A DNA stretch of 64,000 nt from Bartonella sp. AU16XJBT. GTDB lineage: Bacteria; Pseudomonadota; Alphaproteobacteria; Rhizobiales; Rhizobiaceae. Location: NCBI RefSeq assembly GCF_028618665.1, contig NZ_JAQITF010000001.1:124001-188000 (forward strand), written 5' to 3'. Below the pieces are notes generated by a model. That model was not told the DNA's origin. It searched no databases and was given only the letters and a program-made list of their open reading frames with translations. Both the position numbers and the translations under genes were made by a program. Shown piece by piece: positions 5,403-52,384 of the stretch (positions are counted from its first letter, which is position 1; each line of letters starts with the position of its first letter).

Positions 5403-7187
5403 ATGACAGACAATTCTCAACTGGAAACTCTTAAAAAAACAGCCCTTAACAGTATATCCTCAACGCCATTTCTTATGTTTGCTCGTCTGCATCTTCGAAC
5501 ACAACGTCTCTTTAGACAGTTGCTTTTTTCCAGTCTCACACGCCGCATTGTTATATTAAACATTGCTGCCCTTGCCGTTCTGGTTACAGGCATTTTATAC
5601 CTTAACCAATTTCGCGATGGTTTAATTGAAGCAAAAATTAAAAGTTTATGTACCCAAGGGAAAATTATTGCTGGAGCTATTGCTGCTTCTGCAACAGTAG
5701 ATACAAATTCTATCCTTATTGACCCCCAAAAACTCTTGGAGTTACAGACCGGTGAAAGCGTTACACCCGCCCCCCAATCAACCGACTCTTGGGATTTCCC
5801 CATTAACCCTGAGCAAGTTGCCCCTCTTTTACGACGTCTTATCACACCTAAAACGACAAGAGCACGTATTTATGATCGTGATGCTACTTTACTTCTTGAT
5901 TCGCGGGTTCTTTATTCTAGTGGTGAAGTTTTTAGCTATGATTTACCCCCACTTAAAACAGAACAAAACATGTGGGATCGCTTTACTTCATGGTATTCAA
6001 ACACATTTTATGGCAAAGGTATTGCTCTTGATAGAGAACAAACAAAAAACCGTGGTATTGCTTATCCAGAAGTGTACCGTGCATTAAACGGATCTCTTGC
6101 TACCGCCAAAAGACGCAACAGACAAGGTCAACTCATTGTTTCTGTTGCCGTTCCTGTTCAACGCTATCGCGCAGTGGTTGGCGCCCTTCTTCTTTCAACC
6201 ACTGGCTCCGATATTGATAACATTGTAAAGGCCGAAAGACTGGTTATATTTAAAGTCTTTGCCGTTGTAGGCAGCGTACTTTTGGTTCTTTCGCTCTTTT
6301 TAGCCCATACGATTGCCCATCCCTTAAGCAAATTATCTGCCTCTGCTAATCGAGTACGTAATGGCAATAATCAGCGTGTAGAAATTCCTGATTTTTCAAT
6401 GCGTGAAGATGAAATTGGTCATCTCTCAACCTCTATTCGTGACATGACCAATGCCCTTTATATGCGTATTGAAGCCATCGAACGCTTTGCTGCTGATGTA
6501 AGCCACGAATTAAAAAATCCCCTTACTTCTCTACGCAGTGCTGTTGAAACCCTCCCTCTGGCTAAAAATGAAGAAGCACAAGAGAAATTGCTTGAAATTA
6601 TTCAACATGATGTGCGCCGTCTTGATCGGTTGATTACAGATATTTCTGATGCATCGCGTCTCGATGCAGAGCTTGCACGAGAAACCGCAGAGATCGTTGA
6701 TATGACACCACTTTTGGAAAGTCTTGTTCATGCTGTTCAGGAAGTATACCGTAATGCGCAAACCATCGATGTAAGCCTTAATATTATCCCACGTCCTCAT
6801 GGAAAAGCCTATCTTGTGCTGGGACATGAGCTCCGTTTAGGGCAAGTGATTTCAAATCTTCTTGAAAATGCACGTTCCTTTATTCCCCGTAATTGTGGCA
6901 AAATTTCCATTACTATGAAAAGTCATGCTTCAACCCTTATTTTAACCATTGAAGATAATGGACCCGGTATTCGTTCAGAGAATATTGAACGCATTTTTGA
7001 ACGTTTTTATACAGATCGACCAAATGAAGATGCTTTTGGACAAAACTCTGGACTTGGCCTTTCTATTAGCCGGCAAATCATTGAGGCCCATAATGGGACA
7101 ATTACAGCCGAAAATATTATTGATCCGGAACTTGGAAAATGTAAAACTGGTGCACGTTTTATTATTATGCTTCCCCTCGTTAAATAA
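5403..7187 (+). CDS. batS: Sensor histidine kinase BatS (ChvG-type)
   Basis: Inner-membrane sensor kinase, 594 residues, partner of the adjacent BatR. It has a basic cytoplasmic N-terminus, TM1 near residues 47-68, a periplasmic sensor region of about 210 residues, TM2 near 283-305, a HAMP linker (AHPLSKLSASANRVRNG), and a HisKA domain with the phospho-acceptor His368 in DVSHELKNPL. The HATPase domain has NLLENA, EDNGPGI and SGLGLSI. ChvG homologues respond to acidic or periplasmic signals; for BatS the host blood pH is the proposed cue. hprK starts 23 nt downstream, so the genes may be co-transcribed. No strong Shine-Dalgarno site is seen at the ATG. Confidence 0.92.
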   Translation: MTDNSQLETLKKTALNSISSTPFLMFARLHLRTQRLFRQLLFSSLTRRIVILNIAALAVLVTGILYLNQFRDGLIEAKIKSLCTQGKIIAGAIAASATVDTNSILIDPQKLLELQTGESVTPAPQSTDSWDFPINPEQVAPLLRRLITPKTTRARIYDRDATLLLDSRVLYSSGEVFSYDLPPLKTEQNMWDRFTSWYSNTFYGKGIALDREQTKNRGIAYPEVYRALNGSLATAKRRNRQGQLIVSVAVPVQRYRAVVGALLLSTTGSDIDNIVKAERLVIFKVFAVVGSVLLVLSLFLAHTIAHPLSKLSASANRVRNGNNQRVEIPDFSMREDEIGHLSTSIRDMTNALYMRIEAIERFAADVSHELKNPLTSLRSAVETLPLAKNEEAQEKLLEIIQHDVRRLDRLITDISDASRLDAELARETAEIVDMTPLLESLVHAVQEVYRNAQTIDVSLNIIPRPHGKAYLVLGHELRLGQVISNLLENARSFIPRNCGKISITMKSHASTLILTIEDNGPGIRSENIERIFERFYTDRPNEDAFGQNSGLGLSISRQIIEAHNGTITAENIIDPELGKCKTGARFIIMLPLVK

Positions 7188-7210
7188 ATCTTTTATCCAA
7201 AGTAAAAGGT

Positions 7211-7675
7211 ATGAAAACAAAATGTGAAATACTCCACGCAAATTGCCTTCAACTGGGTGGACAGGGGCTGTTAATTATAGGTCCATCGGGATCAGGAAAA
7301 TCAACCCTCACCCTCTCTCTGCTCGACCGCGCTGAGTGGTCAAAACGTGAAGCAAAACTTATCAGTGATGATTATACAATGCTACGTGCGAAAAATGGAA
7401 AACTTCACGGATACACACCTGACAACTTACAGGGCGGTATCGAGATTCGTGGTGTTGGTCTTTATATGATGGAATTTCAAAAGAATACAACTATAGATTG
7501 CGTTGTTTTTCTCGGCCCTGAATATGAACGTTTTTCCACAAATAAAACTTTTCAATTTGAAGATTTGCACATCCCTCTTTTAAAACTTCCCTCTCTTCGT
7601 GAAGCCGATTGTACAGCCATTTGTCAAGCTATTGAAGCATTTTTGTTCAGAAAAATATGGCGTAAACCTGTCTAA
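7211..7675 (+). CDS. hprK: HPr kinase/phosphorylase, short alphaproteobacterial form
   Basis: Serine kinase/phosphorylase acting on HPr. At 154 residues it is the short form found in alphaproteobacteria and lacks the N-terminal domain of the Firmicutes enzyme. It keeps the P-loop GPSGSGKST at residues 24-32, the LISDDY motif, and GGIEIRGVGL, the HprK signature region. Its substrate HPr is encoded 550 bp downstream with a regulatory serine. The position after batS links the two-component system with the PTS proteins, as in rhizobia. Confidence 0.92.
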   Translation: MKTKCEILHANCLQLGGQGLLIIGPSGSGKSTLTLSLLDRAEWSKREAKLISDDYTMLRAKNGKLHGYTPDNLQGGIEIRGVGLYMMEFQKNTTIDCVVFLGPEYERFSTNKTFQFEDLHIPLLKLPSLREADCTAICQAIEAFLFRKIWRKPV

Positions 7676-7810
7676 TTTTTTTCTAAAGATAAAAAAATAA
7701 CAATTTTTGCCTTTTTTTTGCAAATTTTTCTTGGCAGCAAGACAAAGCCTTGTAAAATATCTTTCCCACCAATATGGTCGGATCTTATTAGTTAACAGGA
7801 GTTTGCGTAA

Positions 7811-8209
7811 ATGATTGGACTCGTGCTTGTAACGCACGGTGAGCTGGCTGTTGAATTTTTACATGCCGTGGAACATGTTGTTGGAACACAAGAAAAGTTT
7901 GCAACAATATGCGTTTATCCCGATGACGATATAGATCAGCGCCGAGGTGATATTATAGCCGCAGTAACCGATACAAATACAGATCATGGCGTCATCATAT
8001 TAACAGATGTGTTCGGTGGAACACCATCAAATATAGCTATTCCTGCTATTGAAAAAGGACGCGTTGAAATGATTGCGGGGGTTAATTTGCCCATGCTTAT
8101 TAAACTGATTTCTATTCGCAAATGTCCTGATATCTCATTATCAGACGCGTTAAGAATAGCGCAAGAAGCTGGGCGTAAATATATTAACGTACCAAGTATG
8201 ATTTTATAG
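7811..8209 (+). CDS. PTS system mannose-type EIIA domain protein
   Basis: Single-domain EIIA of the mannose family (132 residues), called ManX, PtsM or EIIA-Man in rhizobia. The phospho-acceptor is His9 in VLVTHGELA, and the DVFGGTPSN motif around residues 60-68 is typical of EIIA-Man. An AACAGGAG ribosome site lies upstream of the ATG. There is no membrane EIIB/IIC gene nearby, so it more likely acts in regulation than in sugar uptake; that part is inference. HPr starts 17 nt downstream. Confidence 0.9.
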   Translation: MIGLVLVTHGELAVEFLHAVEHVVGTQEKFATICVYPDDDIDQRRGDIIAAVTDTNTDHGVIILTDVFGGTPSNIAIPAIEKGRVEMIAGVNLPMLIKLISIRKCPDISLSDALRIAQEAGRKYINVPSMIL

Positions 8210-8226
8210 CGGATAATACAATACCA

Positions 8227-8520
8227 ATGCTTTCCAAAGATACCTCCCCATGTATAAGCCGTCATTTCAATATCTGTAATAAACGTGGGTTGCATGCAAG
8301 GGCTTCCGCAAAATTTGTACAAACTGTTGACAATTTTAACGCTACTGTTGAAGTTGAAAAGGATGGAAAAATCGTTGGTGGGTCATCAATTATGGGGCTT
8401 ATGATGCTAGCTGCTTCATCCGGTTGCAACCTCATCATTCGTGTTTCAGGACCAGAAGCAACAGATGCTCTTAATGCTCTTGAAAAACTCATCAATAACA
8501 ACTTCGGAGAGGAAAACTAG
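8227..8520 (+). CDS. ptsH: Phosphocarrier protein HPr
   Basis: HPr/NPr-type phosphocarrier of 97 residues. The PEP-dependent phosphorylation site is His23 in RGLHARAS, and the HprK target is Ser54 in GGSSIMGLM. A short N-terminal extension precedes the HPr fold. It closes the batR-batS-hprK-EIIA-ptsH block. In related rhizobia ahcY follows ptsH directly; here ahcY lies about 39 kb downstream on the same strand. No strong ribosome site is seen before the ATG. Confidence 0.92.
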   Translation: MLSKDTSPCISRHFNICNKRGLHARASAKFVQTVDNFNATVEVEKDGKIVGGSSIMGLMMLAASSGCNLIIRVSGPEATDALNALEKLINNNFGEEN

Positions 8521-9157
8521 CGCTTTCTCACCATAAATAAGGATGATAATTCTTAGAGAATAAGAACTGTCCATCGTTATCTTAGACTTTGATCACTTTT
8601 CCCGTTTTTGTGCCAATATTCATATCCACTGTAGATTAACACAATTATTATAAATGTAACTTCTTGTCATAATTCTATTATATAGAATTTTTTCTTCCTT
8701 TCTTAACATTATTTGGCAAATTTAAATAGTTGTTGCGTATTATGGCTGTTATCATGATTAATATTTATGATGAGATCTTTACAGTAGAGAAAAACTTTTA
8801 TCCCTACTGAATAAGCTGAATTTTAAACTACTTTAAAAATATAGAATTAATCACATCATAAGGAATTTTTCAATTTTCTTTATCTTAAACTAAACTTTTT
8901 GTATTTGTAGAGAGAAAATACACATAACCTTCTACCACACATCTTCGCGACAAAACACATATGAGTATGGTTTCATTATCCCGATAAATATTTTTTTTAA
9001 TTTCATAAGCTTTATGAACTCAATGCAACAATTATAGAATAAACATTTTTTAGACATTATTTTTCTACACAATTGCCTTATCCTTATTGGTGTATTCATC
9101 TTTATTATTATCCACCATTGTGCTTGCAGTGGTATTTTTTACTTTAAGGAGATAACC
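8521..9157. other. Intergenic region after ptsH, no gene recognised
   Basis: 637 bp of AT-rich DNA. The only structure noticed is a weak AT hairpin (AATTCTA 8671-8677 with TAGAATT 8683-8689) followed by a T-rich run, which could be a late terminator for the PTS genes. No convincing reading frame, tRNA or family I repeat was found. Confidence 0.4.
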
Positions 9158-9697
9158 ATGTCTCGTTTATTTAGTGCCCTTCAAATTCCCCAACAAACAA
9201 CACAACAACTTGTATCCTTGCAAAATGGCTTACCAAATGCGCAGTGGATTAATCCGCAAAATTTTCACGTTACTTTGTCTTTTTTCGGTGAAATTGAAGG
9301 TGCTACAGCGGATGCACTTATGCACGCCTTTGACACAATAAAGTTCCCTCCTTTTATGCTACAAATGAAGGACTTTGACATTTTTGTTTCAGAAAACGCT
9401 CCACATTCTCTTGTTATTCGCATTGAACTTTGTGAAACTCTCAATCTTTTACACGAAAAGATGCAATATATTCGTAGCCATTTAGATCTAACGCCTGATG
9501 AAAGAGAATTTACTCCACATATTACTATTGCACGACTGCTTGATACTAAACCTGCAGATCTTCCTCCTTATCTGTCCTCTCGGGGTGATTTTTCATTTCC
9601 TCCTTTTGAGGTCGATCACTTTGTCTTATTTTCATCCCCATCTCCCTCAAGTGATGCACCATATATTGTAAAAGGGAGTTGGCCACTTCAAAGATAA
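9158..9697 (+). CDS. thpR: RNA 2',3'-cyclic phosphodiesterase
   Basis: Member of the 2H phosphoesterase superfamily (the LigT/ThpR group, once called 2'-5' RNA ligase). The enzyme opens 2',3'-cyclic phosphates on RNA ends. Both catalytic HxTx motifs are present: HVTL at residues 37-40 and HITI in the second half. The length of 179 residues is normal, and TTAAGGAG precedes the ATG. It stands alone, convergent with grpE, with a hairpin between them. The biological substrate is not known from sequence. Confidence 0.88.
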   Translation: MSRLFSALQIPQQTTQQLVSLQNGLPNAQWINPQNFHVTLSFFGEIEGATADALMHAFDTIKFPPFMLQMKDFDIFVSENAPHSLVIRIELCETLNLLHEKMQYIRSHLDLTPDEREFTPHITIARLLDTKPADLPPYLSSRGDFSFPPFEVDHFVLFSSPSPSSDAPYIVKGSWPLQR

Positions 9698-9719: not shown

Positions 9720-9789
9720 AAAGCTCTTTGAGAAAAAACCTCATACATGCGAAATTGCAGGAAATGCTGCATTTTACGTTGGAAGCTTG

Positions 9790-10458
9790 TTATTGATGTG
9801 AAGCCTTATCAGTTTCAACAGAAGTTTCTTTTGTTCCTCCTTTGGCCACACCCACTATAGCTGGGCGCAACACCCTTTCCCCGATAATATAACCAGCCTG
9901 AACAACTTGTTGAACAGTGTTATCGGGGACATCAGTATTAGGAATTTCAAACATCGCTTGATGAAAGTGAGGATCAAATTTTTGTCCATCTGGATAAATT
10001 TTCTGCACCCCATGGCGTTCTAATGCTGCCATCATGGCACGTTCAGTCATTTCAACACCTTCTGCCAATGATTTCAAACCAGCATCACTTTCACGTGCAC
10101 CTTCTGGAATCGCTTCCAAAGCGCGATTGAGATTGTCAGAAACAGACAACATATCCCGTGCAAAATTAGCAATGGAATAAGCCCTCGCATCCGCTACATC
10201 ACGCGCAGTACGACGTCGAAGATTTTCCATATCTGCAGCAAGACGTAAAAGTTGATCTCTCAGCTCTTTATTTTCATCCTGCAAAGACGCTAAAGGATCA
10301 ACTTCATTACTTTCTTTTTCAACGTCTCCATGTACTTCTGTTTTATGTGTTTTTAAAAGTTCATCAGCTGCTTGTTTAAGTGTATTACGATCAGCGGGAT
10401 TTTTTAAATCGCAATTTTCAAATGAAGCATCAGTAAATTTGTTTTTTTCATCAGACAT
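9790..10458 (-). CDS. grpE: Nucleotide exchange factor GrpE
   Basis: Releases ADP from DnaK. The 222-residue protein has a variable acidic N-terminus, then a long coiled coil ([25 protein letters not shown]), and the conserved head motif region [11 protein letters not shown] with [20 protein letters not shown] near the C-terminus. It lies 125 nt downstream of hrcA on the same strand, the common alphaproteobacterial hrcA-grpE pair. Confidence 0.95.
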
Positions 10459-10583
10459 AAAAATTCTATTCCTTCATAAGATTTGTTATTCTCGATATCG
10501 AAATTTTACAGACAAAAATCAAGGGGTATAGATGTATATTAATACAATGAGCTTTTATAGCACAAATACTTACCTGCATCGTT

Positions 10584-11654
10584 TTAACGCAATAACTGTG
10601 ATACAAGTTGAGCTGTATAATCAACCATGGGCACAATCCTTGCATAATTAAGCCGTGTAGGACCAATAACGCCTAAAGCACCAATAACTCTTTGTTGTGA
10701 ATCACGATAAGGTGCTACGACTAAAGAAGAACCAGAAAGTGAAAATAACTTATTTTCTGAACCAATAAAAATTCTAACCCCTGAACCTTCATCCGTTAAA
10801 TCGAGAAGCTGTGCCATACTCTCACGTGTTTCAAGGTCATCAAACAAATGGCGTAACCGTTCTAAATCTTCTTCTGCTTTCACATCTTCAAGCAAATTAC
10901 TGCGTCCACGAACAATGAGGTGTATTTTATGATCAGCGCCTTCTCCTCCTAGGAGAGCTAATCCCGTTTCAACAAGATGATGTGATAAATCATCAAGTGC
11001 AGCCCGCGTTTCCGCGCACAAACGCGCAATTTCCCCTTTAGCTTCACTCAATGTACGCCCTTGAATATGAGCATTGAGAAAATTCGTTGCTTCTGTCAAT
11101 TGTGCATGGGTAACCCCTTCTGGCAAATGAACAATACGATTTTCAACCTCACCTTGTTGAGTCACTAAAACAGCAAGAGCGTGCTCCCTATCAAGACGCA
11201 CAAATTCAATATGTTTTAATGTTCCTTCTTGTTTTGTTGCGAGAACAAGCCCAGCCCCACGGGAGAGATCTGAAAGAACTCGGCTTGCTTGAACAAGAAA
11301 ATGTTCAACCGATTGTGCATGACCAGCCTCTTTGACTTGCATTTCAATATTTTCTCTCTCCTCGTTTGGCAAATCACCCGCTTCCATAAATGCATCAACA
11401 AAAAAGCGTAAACCCGATTGGGTTGGCATTCGCCCTGCCGAAACATGCGGTGCATAAATCAAACCGAGATGTTCAAGATCACTCATCACATTGCGAATCG
11501 TCGCAGGTGATAATGTCTGTTGCAAAAGCCGTGAAAGATTGCGTGACCCTACAGGCTCACCATCATTAAGATAGGCTTCAACAATATGGCGGAAAATATC
11601 ACGCGAACGCTCATCAAGATATTTTAGTTCATTATCAATAGGTTTGTGCTTCAT
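10584..11654 (-). CDS. hrcA: Heat-inducible transcription repressor HrcA
   Basis: Repressor that binds CIRCE operators, usually at groESL, and needs GroEL for activity. It has an N-terminal winged helix (LDERSRDIFRHIVEAYLNDGEPVGSRNLSR) with the ATIRNVMSDLE recognition region, and the C-terminal VIGPTRLNYARIVPMVDYTA block. The length of 356 residues from MKHKPIDNE is normal. The start was set at 11654 because an upstream extension of 47 codons runs through a likely promoter (11688-11717). No CIRCE element was found near this gene or dnaK. Confidence 0.93.
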   Translation of the reverse strand: MKHKPIDNELKYLDERSRDIFRHIVEAYLNDGEPVGSRNLSRLLQQTLSPATIRNVMSDLEHLGLIYAPHVSAGRMPTQSGLRFFVDAFMEAGDLPNEERENIEMQVKEAGHAQSVEHFLVQASRVLSDLSRGAGLVLATKQEGTLKHIEFVRLDREHALAVLVTQQGEVENRIVHLPEGVTHAQLTEATNFLNAHIQGRTLSEAKGEIARLCAETRAALDDLSHHLVETGLALLGGEGADHKIHLIVRGRSNLLEDVKAEEDLERLRHLFDDLETRESMAQLLDLTDEGSGVRIFIGSENKLFSLSGSSLVVAPYRDSQQRVIGALGVIGPTRLNYARIVPMVDYTAQLVSQLLR

Positions 11655-13989: not shown

Positions 13990-14340
13990 TAACAACATAT
14001 TGATTTTAATGACAGTTATCATTTTTATAGCAAAAGCGAGACTAAAATATCGTAAGATTTTTTCATTTAAAAACTATTTATAATACATTAATGACAACCA
14101 TTCACTTACCCTCTAAAAGTAGGAAAATTTTTGGATAAAAACTATTAAAAAGGGTATAAAATGCTTTTTATGAACAATTTCAAACGCCAAAAGCTATCGC
14201 AATATTTTGAGCTAAAAAGTCTATGATGGTCTCTTTTTTCATAAGCGTAAAGAGAGGCGATGCCCTATAGATTTTATATTACATTATCCATAAGCACCGT
14301 TGAATGTAACAAACATTGAAAGCGTTTCTTTAGAATAAGC
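13990..14340 (+). pseudogene. Integrase 5'-end relic (family I repeat, copy A)
   Basis: Degenerate family I copy in the 840-bp gap between hemW and dapE. The head has ATATCGTAAGATTTTTTCATT. The start codon at 14161 gives MLFMNNFKRQKLSQYFELKSL then a stop, and CATAAGCGTAAAGA (14240-14253) encodes the HKRK motif in another frame. The tail keeps a CATTGAAAG...GTTTCTTTA piece of the LRDVSLK codons. No tRNA gene adjoins it. Confidence 0.65.
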
Positions 14341-14640
14341 ACGTGAATGCACACTACAATGATATATTATTTCTTACAAGAGTGTGGAAAATATTAAAAC
14401 ATAAAGTACAAATAAGCACATTTATGTTGTAGAAAATTTTTAAAAAAGCAGCATATTCTTATGTGTCTTTATGGCTTTAACCTATCATCATATCAATTGT
14501 GATATTAACGTTCGTTGTTTTCCATATATGAATTGCGCGTTAATTTCTGCCCTACACCTTAAAGAATCAAGATTCTTAATCCGATCCTGTAAACAGCCCT
14601 ACTTCTTAAAACATGTTTCACTTGGTTTTCCATTTATGTG

Positions 14641-14770
14641 ATCCACTGAACTGAAGACTTTACGAGCAACAATCCAGCTTAAGAATGCTGTACTTTAAAA
14701 CCACCTAATATAGCTAAGTCGCGCTTTATATCACCACACCTCAAATGACAATGTTTTATGGCAACAAAAG
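14641..14770 (+). repeat. Family II degenerate repeat, copy 1
   Basis: Shares 22 identical bases (14729-14750, beginning TATCACCACACC) with 22349-22370, embedded in about 120 bp of weaker similarity that includes AAGACT..ACGA.CAAC and CTTTAAAACCAC-like blocks. One frame of the core reads ITTPQMT in both copies, which suggests former coding DNA. I do not recognise the parent gene. Confidence 0.5.
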
Positions 14771-14822
14771 GGTTTTACGGCAAAACAAGATAAAGATATT
14801 ATTGAACCAAACAATTATTTCT

Positions 14823-17887: not shown

Positions 17888-17916
17888 TTGTTTTTATGCG
17901 CATAATTGTATATTAA
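17888..17916 (+). promoter_or_regulatory. Candidate promoter for infC
   Basis: TTGTTT (17888-17893) and TATTAA (17911-17916) are separated by exactly 17 nt, about 40 nt upstream of the proposed AUU start of infC. Pattern match only. Confidence 0.4.
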
Positions 17917-17955
17917 ATTAGCTGTTAGTTGAATCAAAATTAAGGAGCATAAACC

Positions 17956-18492
17956 ATTCGTAAACCGTTTAAAATGACACCTACCCAAAAAGACGGACCA
18001 CGTTCAAATAAGGATATTCGAGTCCCTCATGTTCAGCTTATCAATGATGCGGGACAACATCAGGGGGTCGTTGCAATACAAGATGCTCTTGCTATGGCCG
18101 CAGAGGCGGGGCTTGATTTGGTTGAAATTGTACCAAATGCAGAGCCGCCCGTGTGTAAAATCATCGATTTGGGAAAATTAAAGTATCAAACTCAAAAAAA
18201 AGCCGCTGAAACACGTAAAAAACAAAAAGTCATCGAAATCAAAGAGATTAAGATGCGCCCGAATGTTGATGTCCATGATTATGGAGTCAAGCTGAAGGCT
18301 GTTCATCGCTTTATTGATCATGGAGATAAAGTAAAGATTACTTTGCGTTTTCGTGGTCGTGAGATGGCTCACCAAGATCTTGGATTAAAGCTTCTGCAGC
18401 GTGTGAAAGAAGATACAAGTGAAATTGCCAAGATTGAATTGGAGCCAAAACTTGAAGGGCGGCAAATAATGATGGTGATCGCGCCTAAATAG
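17956..18492 (+). CDS. infC: Translation initiation factor IF-3, probable AUU start
   Basis: IF-3 binds the 30S subunit and checks the start codon. The protein has the N-domain ([14 protein letters not shown]), the linker lysine-rich region, and the C-domain ([17 protein letters not shown] to [11 protein letters not shown]). The first ATG is at 17974, but AAGGAG (17942-17947) is 8 nt from an in-frame ATT at 17956, and the six added codons (RKPFK after the initiator) resemble the usual IF-3 N-terminus. A rare AUU start is the known basis of IF-3 autoregulation in enterobacteria. From this start the protein is 178 residues. rpmI and rplT are not downstream. Confidence 0.93.
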
Positions 18493-18553
18493 TTTTTTAT
18501 TGGAATAATATCTGTGTGCAACTCGTCAAAATGAGCGGATGAGTACCGTCTAG

Positions 18554-18583
18554 AAGCGCCACAGTGAGTTTTGTGGTGCTTTT
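18554..18583 (+). terminator. Rho-independent terminator after infC
   Basis: A 10-bp stem (AAGCGCCACA 18554-18563, TGTGGTGCTT 18572-18581) with one G-T pair and an 8-nt loop, followed by TT. It lies about 60 nt past the infC stop. Confidence 0.75.
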
Positions 18584-18635
18584 AAGGTTTTATAAATTTG
18601 TATAAATCCTTTTAAGAGTTTAATAATGCTTTCTC

Positions 18636-18915
18636 AATTTATAAAAAGAATTCGTTATTTTGCATATTAAATGAGACAGTGCGAATACCGTAAGATCTTC
18701 TCATTTCGAGCTCTCTTATTTATAGAATCTAGCAAAAAATCATTTGCTTGTACATCACAAACAAAGATAATGCATAAAATATTAAAAAAGTAGAAATGTC
18801 TTTTGTGAACCATTTCAAATGTCAAAAGTTATAACAATAGGGAAACTGGTAAAGGAATGATGGTGTTGGCTTGAACTTTCATAACCGTAAAGATAATGAA
18901 GCCCATTAGCACGAC
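18636..18915 (+). pseudogene. Integrase 5'-end relic (family I, tandem copy 1 of 3)
   Basis: First of three head-to-tail family I copies. It contains GAATACCGTAAGATCTTCTC, the ATG at 18796 in an AGAAATG context, and TTTCATAACCGTAAAGAT near the end (the HKRK codons, mutated). The coding part has several frame breaks. Confidence 0.6.
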
Positions 18916-18952
18916 CATCCTCATCTGTTCCTTGCAATCGCAACGTACTGAT

Positions 18953-19256
18953 TTATAAAGATATTCATTGTTTTTCATTAAGAGTCTCGAATATCGTAGG
19001 GTTCTTTCATTTCAAATCTCTCTCATGTTGAATCAATCAAAATTACTTGCTTGCACATCATAAGCGGAGAGAGGCGTGTGAATAAAAACTGTACAAGAAA
19101 AGAGTAAAAATGCCTCTTATGAAGAGTCTCAAGTGCCAAGGGCTGTCGCAACACCCACGAGCTGGCAAAGTGTGTGATGGTGCAAGCTTGTGTTCCTTCA
19201 TAAGCGTAAAGATGGGGGTGCTTAATAACAACACTTTACCAAACAGCATTCAATAA
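18953..19256 (+). pseudogene. Integrase 5'-end relic (family I, tandem copy 2 of 3)
   Basis: One of the best preserved family I copies. From ATG 19110 a 48-codon frame opens with MPLMKSLKCQGLSQHPRAGK and continues VCDGASLCSF. A single frame shift then restores FHKRKDGGA, the conserved Arm-DNA-binding sequence of DUF4102-type integrases. The upstream head (GAATATCGTAGGGTTC, then TTGAATCAATCAAAAT, then TTGCTTGCACATCATAAG) is also intact. Confidence 0.7.
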
Positions 19257-19570
19257 TCCAGGGAACAATCAGTGCTTATTTTTCAAAATAAGATATCATC
19301 TCCTCATTACAAATTTCCCCTTATTATCAACTCTATTGCCAGCTTTCTAAGCAACTTTAGCTACTATCTCTTTTAAAGATAGATCATTTTGTTGGTTCAC
19401 TACCAAAGCCTTTAAATTTTTTTATTCCATTGGTTTTAATCTAACCTTCTGAATATAATAGGATAAAGCGAATACGCAACGTTATAGGATGAAGATGAAA
19501 ATGATGTATTTTTAAATACTCAAAGCATGAAAAATTCCTTGCGCAATATTTTGCATGGAGTAGAATAGAA

Positions 19571-19830
19571 TAACATATTAATTGATAATGATAATTTATA
19601 TTTTTGCTCCTTTTAATTAAGTGAATATCGTAGGATTTTCTCATTCCAAATCTTCTCAATATGGAATCAAACAAAAATATTCGCTTGCGCATCATAGGGG
19701 ATATGATGTGCATAGAAAAAATCATTATCCTCTTATGAAAGTTTTCAAGCGACCAGGGGGAATTGTTGCAATATGCGAATGCCAATAGAGTGATGGTATC
19801 AGCTTATATCTTAGATGATACCTATATAAA
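19571..19830 (+). pseudogene. Integrase 5'-end relic (family I, tandem copy 3 of 3)
   Basis: Third tandem copy, directly upstream of the ABC exporter gene. It has AATTGATAATGATAATTTAT at its head, GAATATCGTAGGATTTTCTC, and GCTTGCGCATCATAGGGG. The start codon is lost (ATTATCCTCTTATG) and the HKRK codons are destroyed. Between this copy and the ABC gene (19831-20021) I see nothing else. Confidence 0.55.
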
Positions 19831-20021
19831 TGAAAGTATAAATGAAAGAGTGATGCAAAAACCATTTATAGAGGATTTTACGTTATACGATGTGCTGTCG
19901 CATGAAAGAGTATGACGCACATTGAAAGAAGAAGGTTCTTTTTGTAAAAAAGATTAAGAGGCTTTTTAATTAAGAGCGCCTCAATCTTGCATAAAACAAC
20001 AAGAAAATATAGAAGCACTTC

Positions 20022-21788
20022 ATGGCCAAAAAACAACTTTCCTCTTTTGATAAACATCTTATTATCCGCCTTTTGCGGGAAAATTTTCATAAACATGCGC
20101 GTTGGTACAGTGCAGCTATTATCTCAATGATCATCATTTCTTGCACAACTGCAACCAGTGCGTGGATTATGCGTGATGTTGTTAATTATATTGTTGATGC
20201 GCAGAATTTTGCTATGATCGTTTTGATTTCTAGCTTCATTGCTTTTATCTTTATTCTTAAAGGGATTGCAACTTTTGCCCAAACTTACTTTTTAAGCAAA
20301 GCAGGCAACAGTATCATTGCTGAACAACAACGCAAAATTTATGCGCGTCTTATGGAACAAGGTGTCTCCTTTTATCATAATAACACGTCATCTGATCTGC
20401 TTGTTCGCGTAACCCATAATGCAACGGCTGTGCGTAATATCATTGATACGATTATCACAACTTTTGTACGTGATTTGCTCTCTGTTAGTGGTCTGTTGCT
20501 TGTCATGTTCATTCAAAACTTTGTGTTAATCTCCATCACTTTAATCTTAGGACCACTGGCTTTTTTAGGTGTTCGAATGGCTTTAAAACGCGTTCGTCGC
20601 CTTATGGAAAAAGAACTTCTTTCACTTGGTGAAATTATAAAAATCGTGCAGGAAACGGCTATTGGTATTCGAGTCATCAAGGCTTTTTCACTAGAAGAAG
20701 TCATGAAAAAAAGGATGGACAAAGCCATTTGTGATGTTGAAAAACAAACAAACAATATTGCAACACTTGAAGCTATTACTAATCCGATTATGGAAACACT
20801 CACAGGTGTTGCCATTGCAGGTATTATCTGCTTTTCCGGTTACCTTGCAACCCAACGCGCAGGTGTTCAAGGTGAATTTATGTCCTTTATTGTTGCTTTA
20901 CTTTTAGCTTATGAACCAGCAAAAAGACTCGCAAATGTCCGTGTTAAAATTGAATCTGGCTTGGTCAATATCCGTACGATGTTTGAAATACTCGATCGTC
21001 CCCTTACAGTTATAGAGCATAAAGAAGCTAAAGATCTGAATAAAACGCAAGGAGCTATTCGTTTCGAGCATGTTTCTTTTGCATATACTGATAACAAAAT
21101 GGTATTGAAAGACATCAATCTAGAAATAGAAGCCGGGAAAATGACCGCATTGGTGGGGCCGTCTGGTTCAGGAAAGTCAACCCTTATCAATCTTATTATG
21201 CGCCTTTATGACCCCACAAAAGGACGTATATTGATTAATGATCAAGACATTCGCTACACAACTTTTCGTTCTCTGAGAAACCTAATGGCCTATGTAGGGC
21301 AAGATACTTTTCTGTTTCAAGGAACCGTTAAATATAATATTGGCCTTGGAAAAGAAGGCGCTCGTGATGATGAAATTATCGCAGCAGCAAAAGCAGCAAA
21401 TGCTCATGACTTTATTATGAATTTGCCAAATGGTTATGATACTCAGATAGGCGATAATGGCTGTAATCTTTCAGGGGGACAAAAACAACGACTCGCTATT
21501 GCTAGAGCAATGATTCACGATAGTGAAATTCTGATTCTTGATGAAGCAACAAGCGCGCTCGATTCACATACCGAAGCACAAATTAATGAAGCCATTCATC
21601 ACCTTACCAAAGGACGCACAACGATCATTATTGCTCATCGCCTTTCAACGATTGCTCGTGCTCATAAAATTGTGTTCATACAAAATGGACAACTGGTTGA
21701 ACAAGGGACTCAGAAAGAATTACTCGCAAAAGAACATGGATTTTATAAAAAACTTCATAATATCCAGTTCAAAAAATATACGTCCTAA
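20022..21788 (+). CDS. MsbA-like ABC exporter (fused permease and ATPase)
   Basis: Half-size ABC exporter of 588 residues that would act as a homodimer in the inner membrane. Six transmembrane segments lie in the first 330 residues. The ATPase has Walker A GPSGSGKST near 379-387, the Q-loop VGQDTFLFQ, the signature LSGGQKQR, Walker B ILILDEATSALD and the H-loop IIIAHRLST. It is closest in layout to MsbA-type lipid or glycan exporters (lipid A flippase, NdvA); the substrate is not resolved. It is isolated between stretches of decayed DNA. No good ribosome site is seen before the ATG. Confidence 0.85.
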   Translation: MAKKQLSSFDKHLIIRLLRENFHKHARWYSAAIISMIIISCTTATSAWIMRDVVNYIVDAQNFAMIVLISSFIAFIFILKGIATFAQTYFLSKAGNSIIAEQQRKIYARLMEQGVSFYHNNTSSDLLVRVTHNATAVRNIIDTIITTFVRDLLSVSGLLLVMFIQNFVLISITLILGPLAFLGVRMALKRVRRLMEKELLSLGEIIKIVQETAIGIRVIKAFSLEEVMKKRMDKAICDVEKQTNNIATLEAITNPIMETLTGVAIAGIICFSGYLATQRAGVQGEFMSFIVALLLAYEPAKRLANVRVKIESGLVNIRTMFEILDRPLTVIEHKEAKDLNKTQGAIRFEHVSFAYTDNKMVLKDINLEIEAGKMTALVGPSGSGKSTLINLIMRLYDPTKGRILINDQDIRYTTFRSLRNLMAYVGQDTFLFQGTVKYNIGLGKEGARDDEIIAAAKAANAHDFIMNLPNGYDTQIGDNGCNLSGGQKQRLAIARAMIHDSEILILDEATSALDSHTEAQINEAIHHLTKGRTTIIIAHRLSTIARAHKIVFIQNGQLVEQGTQKELLAKEHGFYKKLHNIQFKKYTS

Positions 21789-22724: not shown

Positions 22725-23172
22725 TTAATATATTGATTTGTAATCATAATTTTATTTTTCATCTCAAATAAAAGATACGATGTCATTTGCTTATTTCTCC
22801 TTTATATTTATGATGAAACAATCAAAAGAGCTTGTTGTACGTCATAAAAAGCATTGGCGTATCCATAAAAACGCTTAAGATAAGCAATAAAAATCCCTCT
22901 ACGCTTTCAAGCGCAAAGGTTGTCGGCAACATGAGAAGCTGAAACTAAAATGATAATGCCAACTTATATCTTTATTAATATCGGTAGTATGAATTTTATC
23001 CTATTTCACAAGCAGTATTGTGAAATAGGATCAAGCATACACTGAGAAATATTTCTTTAAAACAAGTTTATGAGTTTGCACCACAATAGTAATAGTGTTC
23101 TGTTTGGAACTGTTTGTTATAAGAAAAGTGATCTTATTCAAAAACACCATAAACAAAAATGTAAAATAATTA
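22725..23172 (+). pseudogene. Integrase 5'-end relic (family I, copy E, long)
   Basis: Long degenerate copy. The head is TTGATTTGTAATCATAA. CATAAAAAGCATTGGCGTATCCATAAAAA matches the CATCATAAGCGG..CGTGTGGATAAAA block. The core and a tail GAGAAATATTTCTTTAAAACAAG (codons for LRDVSLKQ) follow, then ATTCAAAAACACCATAAACAAA, matching IKEHDKQK of the opposite copy. It is tail-to-tail with the minus-strand copy at 23235-23715. A perfect hairpin (22998-23031) lies inside. Confidence 0.65.
22998..23031. repeat. Perfect 14-bp inverted repeat
   Basis: ATCCTATTTCACAA (22998-23011) and TTGTGAAATAGGAT (23018-23031) pair perfectly around a 6-nt loop. There is no T run after it, so it is not a standard terminator. 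The inner part (TTTCACAA...TTGTGA) also occurs in the family I copy at 40.9 kb, where it matches the HGRRREMG codons of the integrase. Confidence 0.7.
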
Positions 23173-23234
23173 GGTCATTTTTATTATTAAAAAATATTGC
23201 TTTAAATACGTTTGAAAATAAAATCGATATCTTA

Positions 23235-23715
23235 TGAATTCTACGCTTGCCTCATGCTTTTGTTTATCGTGTTCTTTAATGGCAACATGTCCTTCCCATG
23301 AAATAGAAATGCCATTGTATTGCAAACTCATGGGCTTGTTTTAAAGAAACATCTCTCAACGTTCCCCCAAAGCCCATTTCGCGACAACGCCCATAAATTG
23401 TACAACAAATCTATTCAGCACCTCCATCGTTTACGCTTATAGAGTAATAAACCGGCACCATTCACACTATTTTGCCAACTCGTAGGTGTTGGTGACAGCC
23501 CTTAGCTCTCGAGATGGTTCATAAAGAGGCATTTTTAGTCATTTCTTGTACAGTTTTTATTCACACGGCTTTCTCCACTTATGATATGCACGTGAATGAT
23601 TTTGATTGATTCAACATGAAAGAGATTTACAATGAATGAGAGAAGCTTACGGCATTCAAAGTGCAAAGTTCTAATTCAAATTGAATGACGATAAATTATT
23701 CTTTATAAATCAATA
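23235..23715 (-). pseudogene. Decayed phage integrase (DUF4102 tyrosine recombinase), family I copy D
   Basis: The copy that identifies the repeat. On the minus strand, codons from 23398 read IYGRCREMGFGG then TLRDVSLKQAHEFAIQW, the Arm-DNA-binding region of DUF4102-type tyrosine recombinases. After a frame shift, EGHVAIKEHDKQKHEA follows, matching the usual EGKDPIKERxKQR stretch. Upstream are a MPLYEPS start, DGAGL-like codons and YKRKR, broken by frame shifts and stops. No catalytic domain (R..H-R..Y) is present. It is head-out and tail-to-tail with copy E. Confidence 0.75.
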
Positions 23716-23996
23716 TGTTGTATATATTATACTCTTTAGGCAACAGTATGAAATGAGCTTGAGAACAAGGTTTATCTCTAAAATAAGTTATAGATCAGCA
23801 AAATAACATGCTCTCCTTCGTGAAGATTTTGTTTCTTTAGAGTATGCCATAAACAAAAAATCAACTATTCTAGATCGTTTTCTTCACACCGCAATAAACA
23901 CTTCACCTTTGAGTGTATTCCTAATCTAGGCTTCCTTCCTCAGCCTTAGAAATGAGAGACAAAAAATAAAGAAATTGTTTTTTAAAAATTCAATCT

Positions 23997-40474: not shown

Positions 40475-40599
40475 TCCTCATAAGGAAAAGATACCCCATT
40501 TTTCAAATAATAACTCTTCAAACACCTTATTAAAATATCTCAAAAATAAGAACTGAACTTTTGAATCCATGAAGATGTCTATACATCTCGACTAGATTG

Positions 40600-40990
40600 G
40601 ATAACGTATTAATTTATAATGATAATCTAACATTATTCAACTTGAATGAGAACCCCGAATATCGTAAGATCTTCTCATTTAAAATCCATGTATATTGAAT
40701 CAATGAAAACCATTTTCTTGCACGTTAGCAACGATAGCCGCATGAATATTAAGTGTTTAAGAAAGGACTAAAAACCCCTACAATGAACCGTTTTAAGGGC
40801 TAAGGACTTGTCGCAACATTGAAGGTAAAGAGATGATGCCGGCGTGCTCTTTTGTTAAGCGTAAAGAGAGAGACGCTCTATAAGTTTTATAGCATTTATA
40901 GGAGCTTTATCCTTATACCATTTCACAAGCGCTGTTGTGACAGGGGTGTGGTGGGCATTGAGAGATGTTTCTTAAAAAAATCCTATTCTT
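40600..40990 (+). pseudogene. Integrase 5'-end relic (family I, copy F)
   Basis: Well-kept head (ATTTATAATGATAAT, ACTTGAATGAGAACCCC, GAATATCGTAAGATCTTCTC). The start codon is lost (AAAACCCCTACAATGAACCG). TTAAGCGTAAAGAG marks the HKRK codons, AAGTTTTATAGCATTTATAG marks the FYxIYG codons, and CATTGAGAGATGTTTCTT marks LRDVS. It is tail-to-tail with copy G. Confidence 0.65.
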
Positions 40991-41019
40991 ACCCTAGCTT
41001 TTATCAAGAATAGAGTCTT

Positions 41020-41295
41020 TTTCACCACTGTCTCTCTAGCTTACAAAAAGAGAAGCTGAAACCATCATTTTTTAGTCTTCAACTTTACGAAAGCCCTGCA
41101 CTGGGGAGAATTTATCAAAAGCATTTTCTTTCTTAAATGTTTTTATCCCCATATTGCTCCTATTTATAATGTGTAAATAAATGATTTTTTTGATTTTAAC
41201 GATGAAGATTTAAGAAAATATCTCTATATTTGGGATTTTCATTCAAGTTGAAGATGATAAATTCTCTTCATAAATGAAAGGTGTTATTATCTAAA
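41020..41295 (-). pseudogene. Integrase 5'-end relic (family I, copy G)
   Basis: Minus-strand copy facing copy F. Read on the minus strand: ACTTGAATGAAAATCCCAAATAT, then TTTACACATTATAAATAGG, GGGGATAAAAACATTTAAG, an ATG at 41124-41122, CAGGGCTTTCGTAAAGTTGAAG and TGATGGTTTCAGCTTCTC. It is more decayed than F, with no readable integrase codons past the core. Confidence 0.5.
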
Positions 41296-42836: not shown

Positions 42837-42924
42837 TGTTCCTTGAACTTTAAACTTAACAAAACTTGCGAGACAAAGAAAGCATAATATAAAATCTTAT
42901 GTTTTACCTTTTCTAAAATCAATA

Positions 42925-43410
42925 TTTTGATTTATAATGATAATTTATCATTTTATGACATGCGTAAAAAACTAAATATCATAAGGATTTCTCACTTTAA
43001 CCCTATTCATACTGAATCAATTAAAATCGTTTGTTGAGATGTCATAAACGGGAACGGTCGTGTGGATAAAAGCACTTTTAAAAAGGCATACAACACCTCT
43101 CATGCCCCCTCTCAATGCAAGAATTATTGTCACATTGGAAGTTGGTAAAGAGTATAAGGCTATCGGTTTATTCCTTTTATTTCAATAAAAATGGGAAAAC
43201 ATATAAATCTTATACCTTTCATGGAGAGGTTATACTCTTCATAGGCATTATCATGAAAGAATTTTTGAAATATGTGAGACTATCAAATCTAGCAATGTAT
43301 GGATACATAATAAAAATGATATTTTTGGGGCGCTTTATTTTATGTGAAACGCGCGCTTTAAGAAAACCGTTTGAAAAAAATCTTGCTCTGGTGTTAGCGT
43401 TTCGCTAACA
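42925..43410 (+). pseudogene. Integrase 5'-end relic (family I, copy H)
   Basis: It begins with a palindrome AATGATAATTTATCATT (42936-42952), then AAATATCATAAGGATTTCTC and TACTGAATCAATTAAAATC. The coding part is open from 43115 for 97 codons and aligns loosely with the integrase N-terminus (QELLSHWKLVKS like xLSQHxxxGK; NKNGKTYKSYTFHGE like KDGGAQWxYRYTIHGR), but without a proper start or the rest of the protein. A relic rather than a gene. Confidence 0.55.
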
Positions 43411-47126: not shown

Positions 47127-47846
47127 AATAAATTCTCCTAAAACTGAGTTAATTATTTGATTTATAATTCATAGCTTGTTGTTCGCTATTTTAAAATCAG
47201 AGTGTTCAATAGATTGATGTTTTTGCATTTTAAATGCTCCATTGATATCATAAAAAGTGTTTTCTCGCATATTTACAGTCTTTTGAAAAAAATTATTGAA
47301 AACAGGAAAAAAACATCTCTTACAAACTATCCTCATGTAGGAGCATAATGCACCATAGGAATTCAGAAAAACCTATGCTGAGATTGTCTGTTCATAAATA
47401 TAAAGACAACAACATATGGCTTTGCATTATATTATTTTACTAAAGCTTAATAATCAAACGAAACAAGATCATAATGCCTTTTTTAAACAACCGCATGAGT
47501 GAGTAGAATAAAAGTGTACTATTTTTGTTTATCCCATAAAAAAATCAATATAAAAACTGTGAAGCAATGCATCATGTTTATTCTTTAAAAGGTATCCCTC
47601 TGAAGATTTTTAAAAGCTTTAACGTTCCGTAAAAAGAATAAAATTTTGTTTTTATAATAAGACTTATCCTGAGATTTCTTGTCCTATTCGTCACATCATG
47701 ACTCAGCTTCATAAATGCCTATTTGTTACACAAATTTATGGAGATTTTAAAAGAGCTTTTTCACATAAAGAAGTCTTCTTCTTGTCTTGCATTTTTTTTT
47801 AATTTCTCCTACCGTCTTGGAAAAACTGATTTTAAAGGAATAAAGA
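47127..47846. other. Spacer upstream of ahcY, possible very degenerate family I copy
   Basis: 720 bp, AT-rich. A faint family I resemblance runs from TTGATTTATAATTCATAG (about 47157) through AAAAACATCTCTTACAAACTAT (about 47307) to GTTCATAAATATAAAGAC (about 47390), in the right order but too mutated to be sure. No SAH-type riboswitch pattern was recognised before ahcY. Confidence 0.25.
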
Positions 47847-51788: not shown

Positions 51789-52256
51789 ATGAATTTTAAT
51801 TTTTTTCTTGAAAATGAAGAGGCAACAAAGCTTTTTGCAAAAAATTTAGCCCTTTCTTTAAAGCCAGGAGATCTTGTAACGCTGCAAGGAGATCTTGGAA
51901 CTGGAAAGTCAACCATTGCACGTACAATCATCCAAACACTTGCGAACGATGACACTATGGATGTTCCAAGCCCGACTTTTACTCTTGTGCAAAGCTATCA
52001 ACTTCCACAGTTTGAAATTATTCATGCTGATCTTTATCGCCTTTCTATGGCAGAAGAAATTGATGAATTAGGGCTTCATGAAGCACGTGAGAAAAACATT
52101 TTACTCGTTGAATGGCCAGAAAGAAGTACAGATTTTTTAGAGTTTGCCACTTTTGCACTTACCTTACAATATCAAGCACATGGGCGTCATGTGACACTGA
52201 GATCTGCACAACATTCCATTGAACGTTTGCAACAGTCTTTTGCAATTCACACATAA
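51789..52256 (+). CDS. tsaE: tRNA threonylcarbamoyladenosine synthesis ATPase TsaE
   Basis: P-loop ATPase that works with TsaB and TsaD in t6A37 modification of ANN-decoding tRNAs. It has Walker A GDLGTGKST, SPTFTLVQSYQ, the HADLYRL motif and the LVEWPER motif. The protein is 155 residues from ATG 51789, chosen because GGAAG lies 5 nt upstream; an in-frame ATG at 51777 lacks a ribosome site. The frame stays open back into the divL end. In rhizobia a phosphotransferase and a nucleotidyltransferase gene usually follow; neither is present here. Confidence 0.93.
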   Translation: MNFNFFLENEEATKLFAKNLALSLKPGDLVTLQGDLGTGKSTIARTIIQTLANDDTMDVPSPTFTLVQSYQLPQFEIIHADLYRLSMAEEIDELGLHEAREKNILLVEWPERSTDFLEFATFALTLQYQAHGRHVTLRSAQHSIERLQQSFAIHT

Positions 52257-52384
52257 AAAATATCGACATGGTCATGCATAACAGTGTGTATTCTTAAAAG
52301 CATTAAAATAAATGCATCTAACTTTTTGATTTAATTGACTTGCTATTACCAATATATTTTAGAAAAGAATGTTTAAAAAAGTCA

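Follow-up and report, generated by a model that had tools for sequence, protein, structure and literature searches.

Between a gene for a translation factor and one for an ABC exporter, three integrase-like stretches follow one another in the same direction, and the locus raises the question of whether one relic was copied in place or several elements arrived independently. The sequence-only reading of the window (the whole 64-kb stretch of DNA analysed here) had offered old duplications or three insertions at the same site.

Three relics between infC and the exporter gene

The gap is bordered on its left by an open frame of 172 aa (17974–18492, + strand), which we take to be infC, encoding translation initiation factor IF-3, and on its right by an ABC exporter gene (20022–21788, + strand; open frame, 588 aa). 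The likely terminator hairpin of infC (18553–18583, + strand), recognised by eye and in an alignment of 22 empty and six one-copy loci, is retained at both empty and filled sites.

A profile drawn up from 19 further copies in the same genome, with the three copies under study left out, matched at 18634–18905 (c1), 18939–19241 (c2) and 19571–19910 (c3), all on the + strand, and had no match in the reversed sequence of the window plus 200 kb more (264 kb). The earlier claim of three integrase relics, all facing one way in the gap between infC and the ABC exporter, was thereby borne out. The dot-plot check proposed with it also gave off-diagonal matches: in an ungapped self-comparison, c2 and c3 are 78% identical over 74 bp and a three-copy family lies at 18799/19113/19729. 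The copies are indeed old and diverged from one another, as had been proposed.

The limits first assigned to the copies (18636–18915, 18953–19256 and 19571–19830) do contain three relics, but shifted in our analysis. c1 (18634–18910, + strand; nhmmer E 4e-32), which by eye may extend to ~18930, comprises the left edge, a leader and the first ~35–40 integrase codons. c2 (18939–19241, + strand; nhmmer E 2e-82), the best preserved of the three, starts ~30 bp beyond the end of c1 and comprises the left edge, leader and first ~40 integrase codons. c3, lengthened by a later profile to 19571–19929 (+ strand; nhmmer E 9e-31), comprises the left edge, leader and an integrase start with internal length changes. 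A fossil of a small HTH/excisionase-like gene at 19393–19513 (+ strand; sequence matches and alignment) also belongs to c2. This fossil matches C19:8274–8393, 3′ of an intact integrase (72%, E 5e-12), and positions 1652–1749 of element L092 (blastn E 7e-9); as the gene matched lies just 3′ of intact integrases, c2 represents an internally deleted integrase together with its neighbour gene. Including the fossil, c2 reaches ~19513, with most of the integrase deleted in between, and the c2–c3 gap is partly occupied by the fossil, not mere filler. No excisionase-like gene was seen with c1 or c3.

Aligned in one direction, the relic copies have in common a left edge (about AACATATTGATTTATAATGATAATC) that sets in abruptly after unrelated sequence and is followed by ~180 bp of non-coding leader and then the integrase start. 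The same genome holds four intact integrases of 388–393 aa. One of them carries Arm-DNA-bind_3, Phage_int_M and Phage_integrase domains in a single protein (PF13356, 1.3e-16; PF22022, 2.1e-8; PF00589, 1.5e-10), so the name integrase was well chosen, c1–c3 being the gene start only; HGFR and the C-terminal Y of the catalytic set R-HxxR-H-Y are visible in it by eye. It is thus confirmed that the relics derive from an element with a P4-type (Arm-DNA-bind_3) tyrosine integrase.

At integrase codons 7–20, many relics read AAGTGCCAAG or AAAGTGTGTGATGG where intact genes read AATGCAAG or AAATATAATGATGG (by eye), as if the relics stemmed from an earlier wave of elements. Two further ideas about the relics were rejected, namely an inactivating frameshift common to them, as the net length from start codon to a fixed motif varies widely, and a miniature element with a common exact 3′ end, as relic 3′ limits cluster without being identical. 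For 41 of 58 non-intact left-edge copies this limit falls between model positions 250 and 449, in a set that stems partly from a search with c2 and is biased to that extent (in 62 of 65 copies there was enough sequence for a judgement).

Complete elements and the relic family

What the left ends once belonged to can be gauged from 16 20-kb stretches centred on well-preserved integrases in four other genomes; in 11 of these stretches the open frame at the integrase runs to 390 codons or more. Five elements with both ends recognised measure 14.8–15.9 kb and carry the integrase at their left edge; the right end is conserved in these five and in L096. Direct repeats of 7, 8, 9 or 13 bp, each of different sequence, were found at the two junctions in four of the five, although a 7-bp repeat in the stretches compared is expected by chance about once in three trials by our own arithmetic and only the 8-, 9- and 13-bp repeats carry weight; the fifth element had no direct repeat in place at its junctions. 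Uninterrupted homologues of the targets include an ssb gene (PF00436), a D12 methyltransferase gene (PF02086), a gene for a 111-aa protein without Pfam match and, by eye, a very large haemagglutinin-like frame. The satellite-like elements in L083, L084, L085, L095 and L096 interrupt ssb, methyltransferase and other genes, one of these very large and haemagglutinin-like. The far half of the target lay beyond the element in two of five cases tried (L083, L084) and was absent within the 20 kb in the other three. In three stretches, two well-preserved integrases stand head to tail, their left edges 5.6 (L095), 14.4 (L085) and 17.1 kb (L083) apart.

The intact element L062 has int, an alpA-like gene and a primase in this order and direction and from its genes alone is satellite-like: on the − strand throughout, it has int at 9725–10891, Toprim/DUF7146 at 8386–9216 and DUF3987 at 6773–8389. 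Directly after int lies a 66-aa HTH_17-like open frame whose translation, made by eye, scored 22.5 in Pfam (cut-off 27) and matched a PHROG excisionase at 1.5e-6. The L062 cargo includes a Type ISP restriction enzyme as well as the Toprim/DUF7146 primase and the DUF3987 protein, with a SUKH protein adjoining the element, and L083 carries YdcK-like repeat proteins. Other integrases (L086, L088, L089 and L094) share only the first ~1.8–2.5 kb with most of these elements and then diverge.

The Arm-DNA-bind_3 domain is linked to P4, and P4-like satellites resemble the Bartonella element in its P4-type integrase with this domain; in contrast to them, no tRNA gene that could serve as a target lies in the 64-kb window. 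According to the parts of PMC10111431 consulted, GN-PICIs carry integrase, AlpA-like regulator/excisionase and primase in one direction, their integrases of one clade use different target genes inside prophages, and their att identity blocks measure at least 7 bp. Judged from genes alone, the Bartonella element shares gene order and direction with GN-PICIs and helper-embedded PICIs as presented in those parts (PMC10111431), and similarly varied targets in that it interrupts ssb and D12 DNA methyltransferase genes, but differs in carrying the DUF3987 protein and the Type ISP restriction enzyme. Bartonella is absent from the main text of that paper, and the parts consulted do not describe relic swarms.

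Relics of the family are frequent well beyond the infC gap. In the window, the profile search found ten copies including c1–c3, with a weak extra match at 2764–2951 in a more permissive search. The relic at 13992–14388 (+ strand) is an insertion absent from three outgroups (G064, G005, G069); the ~430 bp that follow it (14388–14819) are likewise absent from three outgroups and have no match in the element stretches. Two relics abut tail to tail at 22726–23218 (+ strand) and 23225–23724 (− strand), and two more lie tail to tail at 40599–40979 (+ strand) and 41023–41280 (− strand). At 42919–43359 (+ strand), comparison with empty outgroup sites revealed an insertion of about the relic’s own length (gap of 490–566 in the window vs. 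60–129 in four outgroups), and the relic at 47151–47637 (+ strand) is older, being also present in G064, G005 and G069; its orthologues in G005 and G069 keep the integrase to model position 712. The sole right-end relic of the window lies at 52248–52346 (+ strand; nhmmer E 2e-5, blastn E 9e-8). At its position (52254), synteny with each of the four outgroups compared breaks at an inversion.

Ten 20-kb stretches of large contigs, chosen by round coordinates (200 kb), gave 22 matches, or about 21 relics if two matches in L099 are counted once, as apparent fragments of a single relic; extrapolated, the whole genome holds roughly 240 such relics, with a wide error. Scoring 40 of 155 candidates gave at least 42 matches to the family, and scoring ten candidates per genome, for presence only, placed it in 50 of 71 Bartonella genomes. 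Tail-to-tail pairs less than 50 bp apart occur three times among 30 left-edge relics in 264 kb, against a random mean of 0.13 and with none of 3000 trials reaching three, although the abutment had been spotted in the same data before being tested. Such abutments (window, 22726–23724 and 40599–41280; L106, 2470–3550; L005, 1457–2654; L071, 3254–4029) have spacings of a few to 45 bases and arms unequal in preservation. In the head-to-head pairs C12:76193/76539 and C4:41387/41813, left edges overlap or lie 21 bp apart.

Nearly all relics are left ends. Across 264 kb, blastn at E<1e-5 with six elements of one type as queries, which would let right ends and cargo of other types escape, found 21 left-end loci, two loci from the 0.5–2 kb part (the rest of the integrase plus the excisionase), both adjoining left-end relics, none from the 13-kb middle and one right end; at E<1e-3 the counts were 25, 2, 0 and 1, a second right-end match in L105 (E 0.06) being left uncounted. 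The rest of the integrase, which is common to the element types, is missing from the relics too: profile coverage in the 264 kb falls from 33 matches at model positions 100–150 to 12 at 400, five at 450 and none beyond 850. In the part of the pairs checked, downstream relic sequences revealed no shared right end, and we attribute their mutual matches to additional integrase fragments and to relics that overlap with a neighbour.

Occupancy of the gap across Bartonella

Of 71 Bartonella genomes searched, 67 gave a match to infC and all 71 gave one to the first 779 bases of the exporter gene. Comparison of 41 loci (the window plus 40 fetched) established that copy number varies between Bartonella species, as one proposed check had asked: the gap is empty in 22 (210–243 bp), holds one copy in six (591–607 bp), two in one (914 bp) and three in ten (1428–1529 bp; among them L027, with a large c1 deletion), and is rearranged in two (1237 and 1898 bp). 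All ten three-copy loci, out of 19 occupied ones, have one colinear, same-direction arrangement. Among 25 named records, largely the same genomes as the 41 loci, 11 are empty (e.g. B. vinsonii, B. taylorii, B. koehlerae), five have one copy (B. grahamii, B. rattimassiliensis, B. fuyuanensis and two further species), one has two (B. queenslandensis NH15), six have three (e.g. B. elizabethae, B. gabonensis, B. tribocorum C635) and two are rearranged (B. massiliensis, B. tribocorum L103). No right-end relic was found at the infC locus in the 41 loci. The flanks of the gap are AT-rich and diverged, leaving the alignment of the 22 empty and six one-copy loci ambiguous for an att core.

Two observations concern the flanks themselves. 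In L142 / L021 (B. sp. AU18XJBT), the infC side clusters with one-copy genomes and the exporter side is 98% identical to the window’s genome; these mixed affinities imply a between-species recombination point in or near the infC–exporter gap. In addition, infC is doubled at G051:C93:106–2379, G053:C33:133382–135660 and G042:C1:1532910–1547265, two of these genomes having the copies ~1.76 kb apart with an exporter-start piece between, and one 13.8 kb apart with a second exporter.

Copies have been both gained and lost at the locus. B. tribocorum L103 carries an extra left end of about 350–380 bp inside c3, which is absent from seven aligned loci and, relative to these, cost at most about 5 bp of c3 at the joint. 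This copy is 82–85% identical to dispersed or intact copies (scores 328–344), compared with 80% to c2 (300), 81% to c1 (216) and 79% to c3 (172). B. massiliensis has an inverted integrase piece at the place expected for c1. In B. queenslandensis NH15, the first part of the second copy is 92% identical to c2 (87/95) and the rest 92% identical to c3 (227/246), each part scoring far above alternatives; recombination between relics thus removed the stretch between. The second copy of L103 resembles this hybrid, albeit less sharply.

The single copy of one-copy genomes is the orthologue of c1 over the length of c1, so that these alleles match c1 on the left, and their right edge is that of c3, the junction being shared in 34 of 37 columns. 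Such a c1-left/c3-right junction suggests a deletion between c1 and c3; the one-copy alleles can also be read as an ancestral single element that was later split. In trees of the flanks, most loci with a single copy branch close to the base, and support is mixed.

Origin of the three copies and of one-ended relics

We consider it likely that c1–c3 are the decayed left ends of three separate element insertions, followed by near-total loss of the rest. A satellite-like integrative element with a P4-type integrase would have entered the infC–exporter gap three times, presumably by means of its own integrase at weakly specified targets, and nearly everything except the left, integrase-bearing ends would subsequently have been lost; the relics would then have decayed in a close to neutral manner, and copies may have disappeared through recombination between relics, as the hybrid copies indicate. 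That c1, c2 and c3 are themselves separate insertions and not duplicates is probable, and we prefer it because of their structure and the later insertions seen at the locus, not because of the tree. Had a single relic instead been duplicated in tandem in the gap, with later divergence of the copies, their common direction and the single colinear arrangement in 10 of 19 occupied loci would follow directly. A tree of 73 rows, which samples five of the ten three-copy and three of the six one-copy loci, recovers three supported groups of orthologues: c1 together with the single copies, c2, and c3. The AU test does not reject all three as one clade (p 0.535), which leaves room for duplication, the held tree fitting slightly better than the free one (by 1.2 log units); with c1+c2 held, p was 0.606 and the gain 5.3 log units, and p was 0.425 for c1+c3 and 0.203 for c2+c3. 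Yet each copy possesses a separate left edge, the right parts differ, the excisionase-like fossil accompanies c2 alone, and further integrase pieces entered the array in B. tribocorum L103 and B. massiliensis. Moreover, c2 scores higher against dispersed copies than against its neighbours: it is 86% identical to one dispersed copy, 84–85% to intact integrases and 82–86% to its four best relatives outside the window (scores 312–346), vs. 82% to c3 (188) and 77% to c1 (184), and identity thus mildly favours a separate origin for c2. Duplication in place strikes us as rather unlikely. While the insertions of the original alternative are thus probable, the shared site that went with them found no support. 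Tandem accretion stacks several integrative elements at one locus, and its classical form uses one shared att core; the units at the Bartonella infC gap are stacked likewise, and one shared att core is not evident there. Serial insertion, in which each new element enters through the att site in its predecessor’s left edge, would be in line with the common AACATATTGATTTATAA-like motif of the left edges, with the short distance between c1 and c2, and with the head-to-head pairs elsewhere whose left edges overlap or nearly touch. However, the junction repeats of complete elements differ mutually, so their targets are not one site, and uninterrupted targets share just a weak motif (by eye), implying that the left-edge motif is for the most part the element’s own; the motif recurs at c1–c3 and at dispersed copies, whose left flanks are unrelated except for a few neighbouring relics. 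Clustering is also expected by chance at this relic density. With 250 copies, a round figure from the 22 matches in 200 kb, uniform placement yields on average 1.1 triples within 940 bp when orientation is ignored and 0.34 when all three must point the same way, rising to 9.1 and 2.7 with 30% of the genome open; for a window with ten copies, the cluster has P 0.067. No common attachment site is therefore needed to explain the triple, the three copies are nothing special to this spot, and we regard serial use of one site as improbable, more so than duplication.

A special form of separate insertion, compatible with the explanation preferred above, is that most relics were never full elements: the left end would have been joined to the chromosome by the integrase, or delivered as a donor fragment, and the other side closed elsewhere, by end joining. 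The product would be 250–450-bp pieces of the integrase 5′ part, fixed at the left edge but ragged at the right. The 21 left-end loci against two, none and one from elsewhere in the element, together with the absence of integrase past model position 850 throughout the 264 kb, fit this, as do three insertions that have about relic length and cost little host sequence: 42919, the extra copy of L103 and that of the one-copy infC allele (gap of about 595 vs. 217). On the other hand, c2 formerly held more, and the longer integrase kept at the 47151 orthologues in two relatives means that erosion after insertion does occur; several hundred bases beyond the relics are present at 13992, 22726/23724 and 40599/41280, and the six query elements, being of one type, would miss other right-end and cargo types. 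A short precise insertion was rejected as a general rule in the window: of the places compared with outgroups, 42919 fits, the three just named carry extra DNA and 47151 is shared with three outgroups. Insertion of left ends only is a serious if unproven reading, to which we give a minority chance, and it is no more than tentatively that we picture a loosely specific P4-type integrase as having seeded the genomes of a large Bartonella group with a couple of hundred such insertions.

A last possibility is that the relics serve the infC–exporter gap as a conserved feature, either regulatory or an RNA. They occupy fixed positions in many species, and in many pairs the divergence of c1, c2 and the c2–c3 gap stays a little below that of the exporter’s four-fold sites, so that mild constraint or conversion is possible. 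Overall, however, relic divergence (JC 0.12–0.27, nine pairs) is comparable in range to those four-fold sites (0.17–0.25) and far above the constrained first and second exporter positions (0.5–2.3%), and relics are absent in 22 of 41 loci. An Rfam search of 17900–20300 gave no match at threshold (best E 0.62). There is no clear sign of a function, and a conserved feature is very improbable.

A literature search retrieved no paper on Bartonella integrase left-end relics. Orientia genomes contain 58–102 integrase genes of the RAGE, a degraded integrative conjugative element, 3–13 of them full length (PMC10732058, parts consulted). Many integrases with few at full length, an integrase at the element start and isolated integrase genes are points of likeness; the RAGE is another element, and in the account consulted its multi-copy cargo genes persist, whereas Bartonella relics are almost only left ends (PMC10732058). 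The fha-repeat and genomic islands of B. grahamii concern the same genus and many pseudogene remnants, and the parts of that report consulted do not describe short integrase left-end relics (PMC2697382).

Our verdict on the locus is one of repeated insertion and loss in one gene gap. More generally, this genome of a rodent-type Bartonella holds a swarm of relics, and the fact that nearly all of them kept one end hints at one-sided insertion or one-sided loss. Integrase relics are common, but a swarm of ~240 copies that keeps one end of a 15-kb element is unlike random decay. If the asymmetry is real, it would point either to one-sided insertion catalysed by a tyrosine recombinase or to deletions that come to a halt close to the integrase start; were one-sided insertion true, left-end pieces would act as a new kind of dispersed repeat, piling up in gaps like that between infC and the exporter. 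As near-neutral markers, the relics may also serve to compare Bartonella genomes and to trace between-species recombination at single gene gaps.
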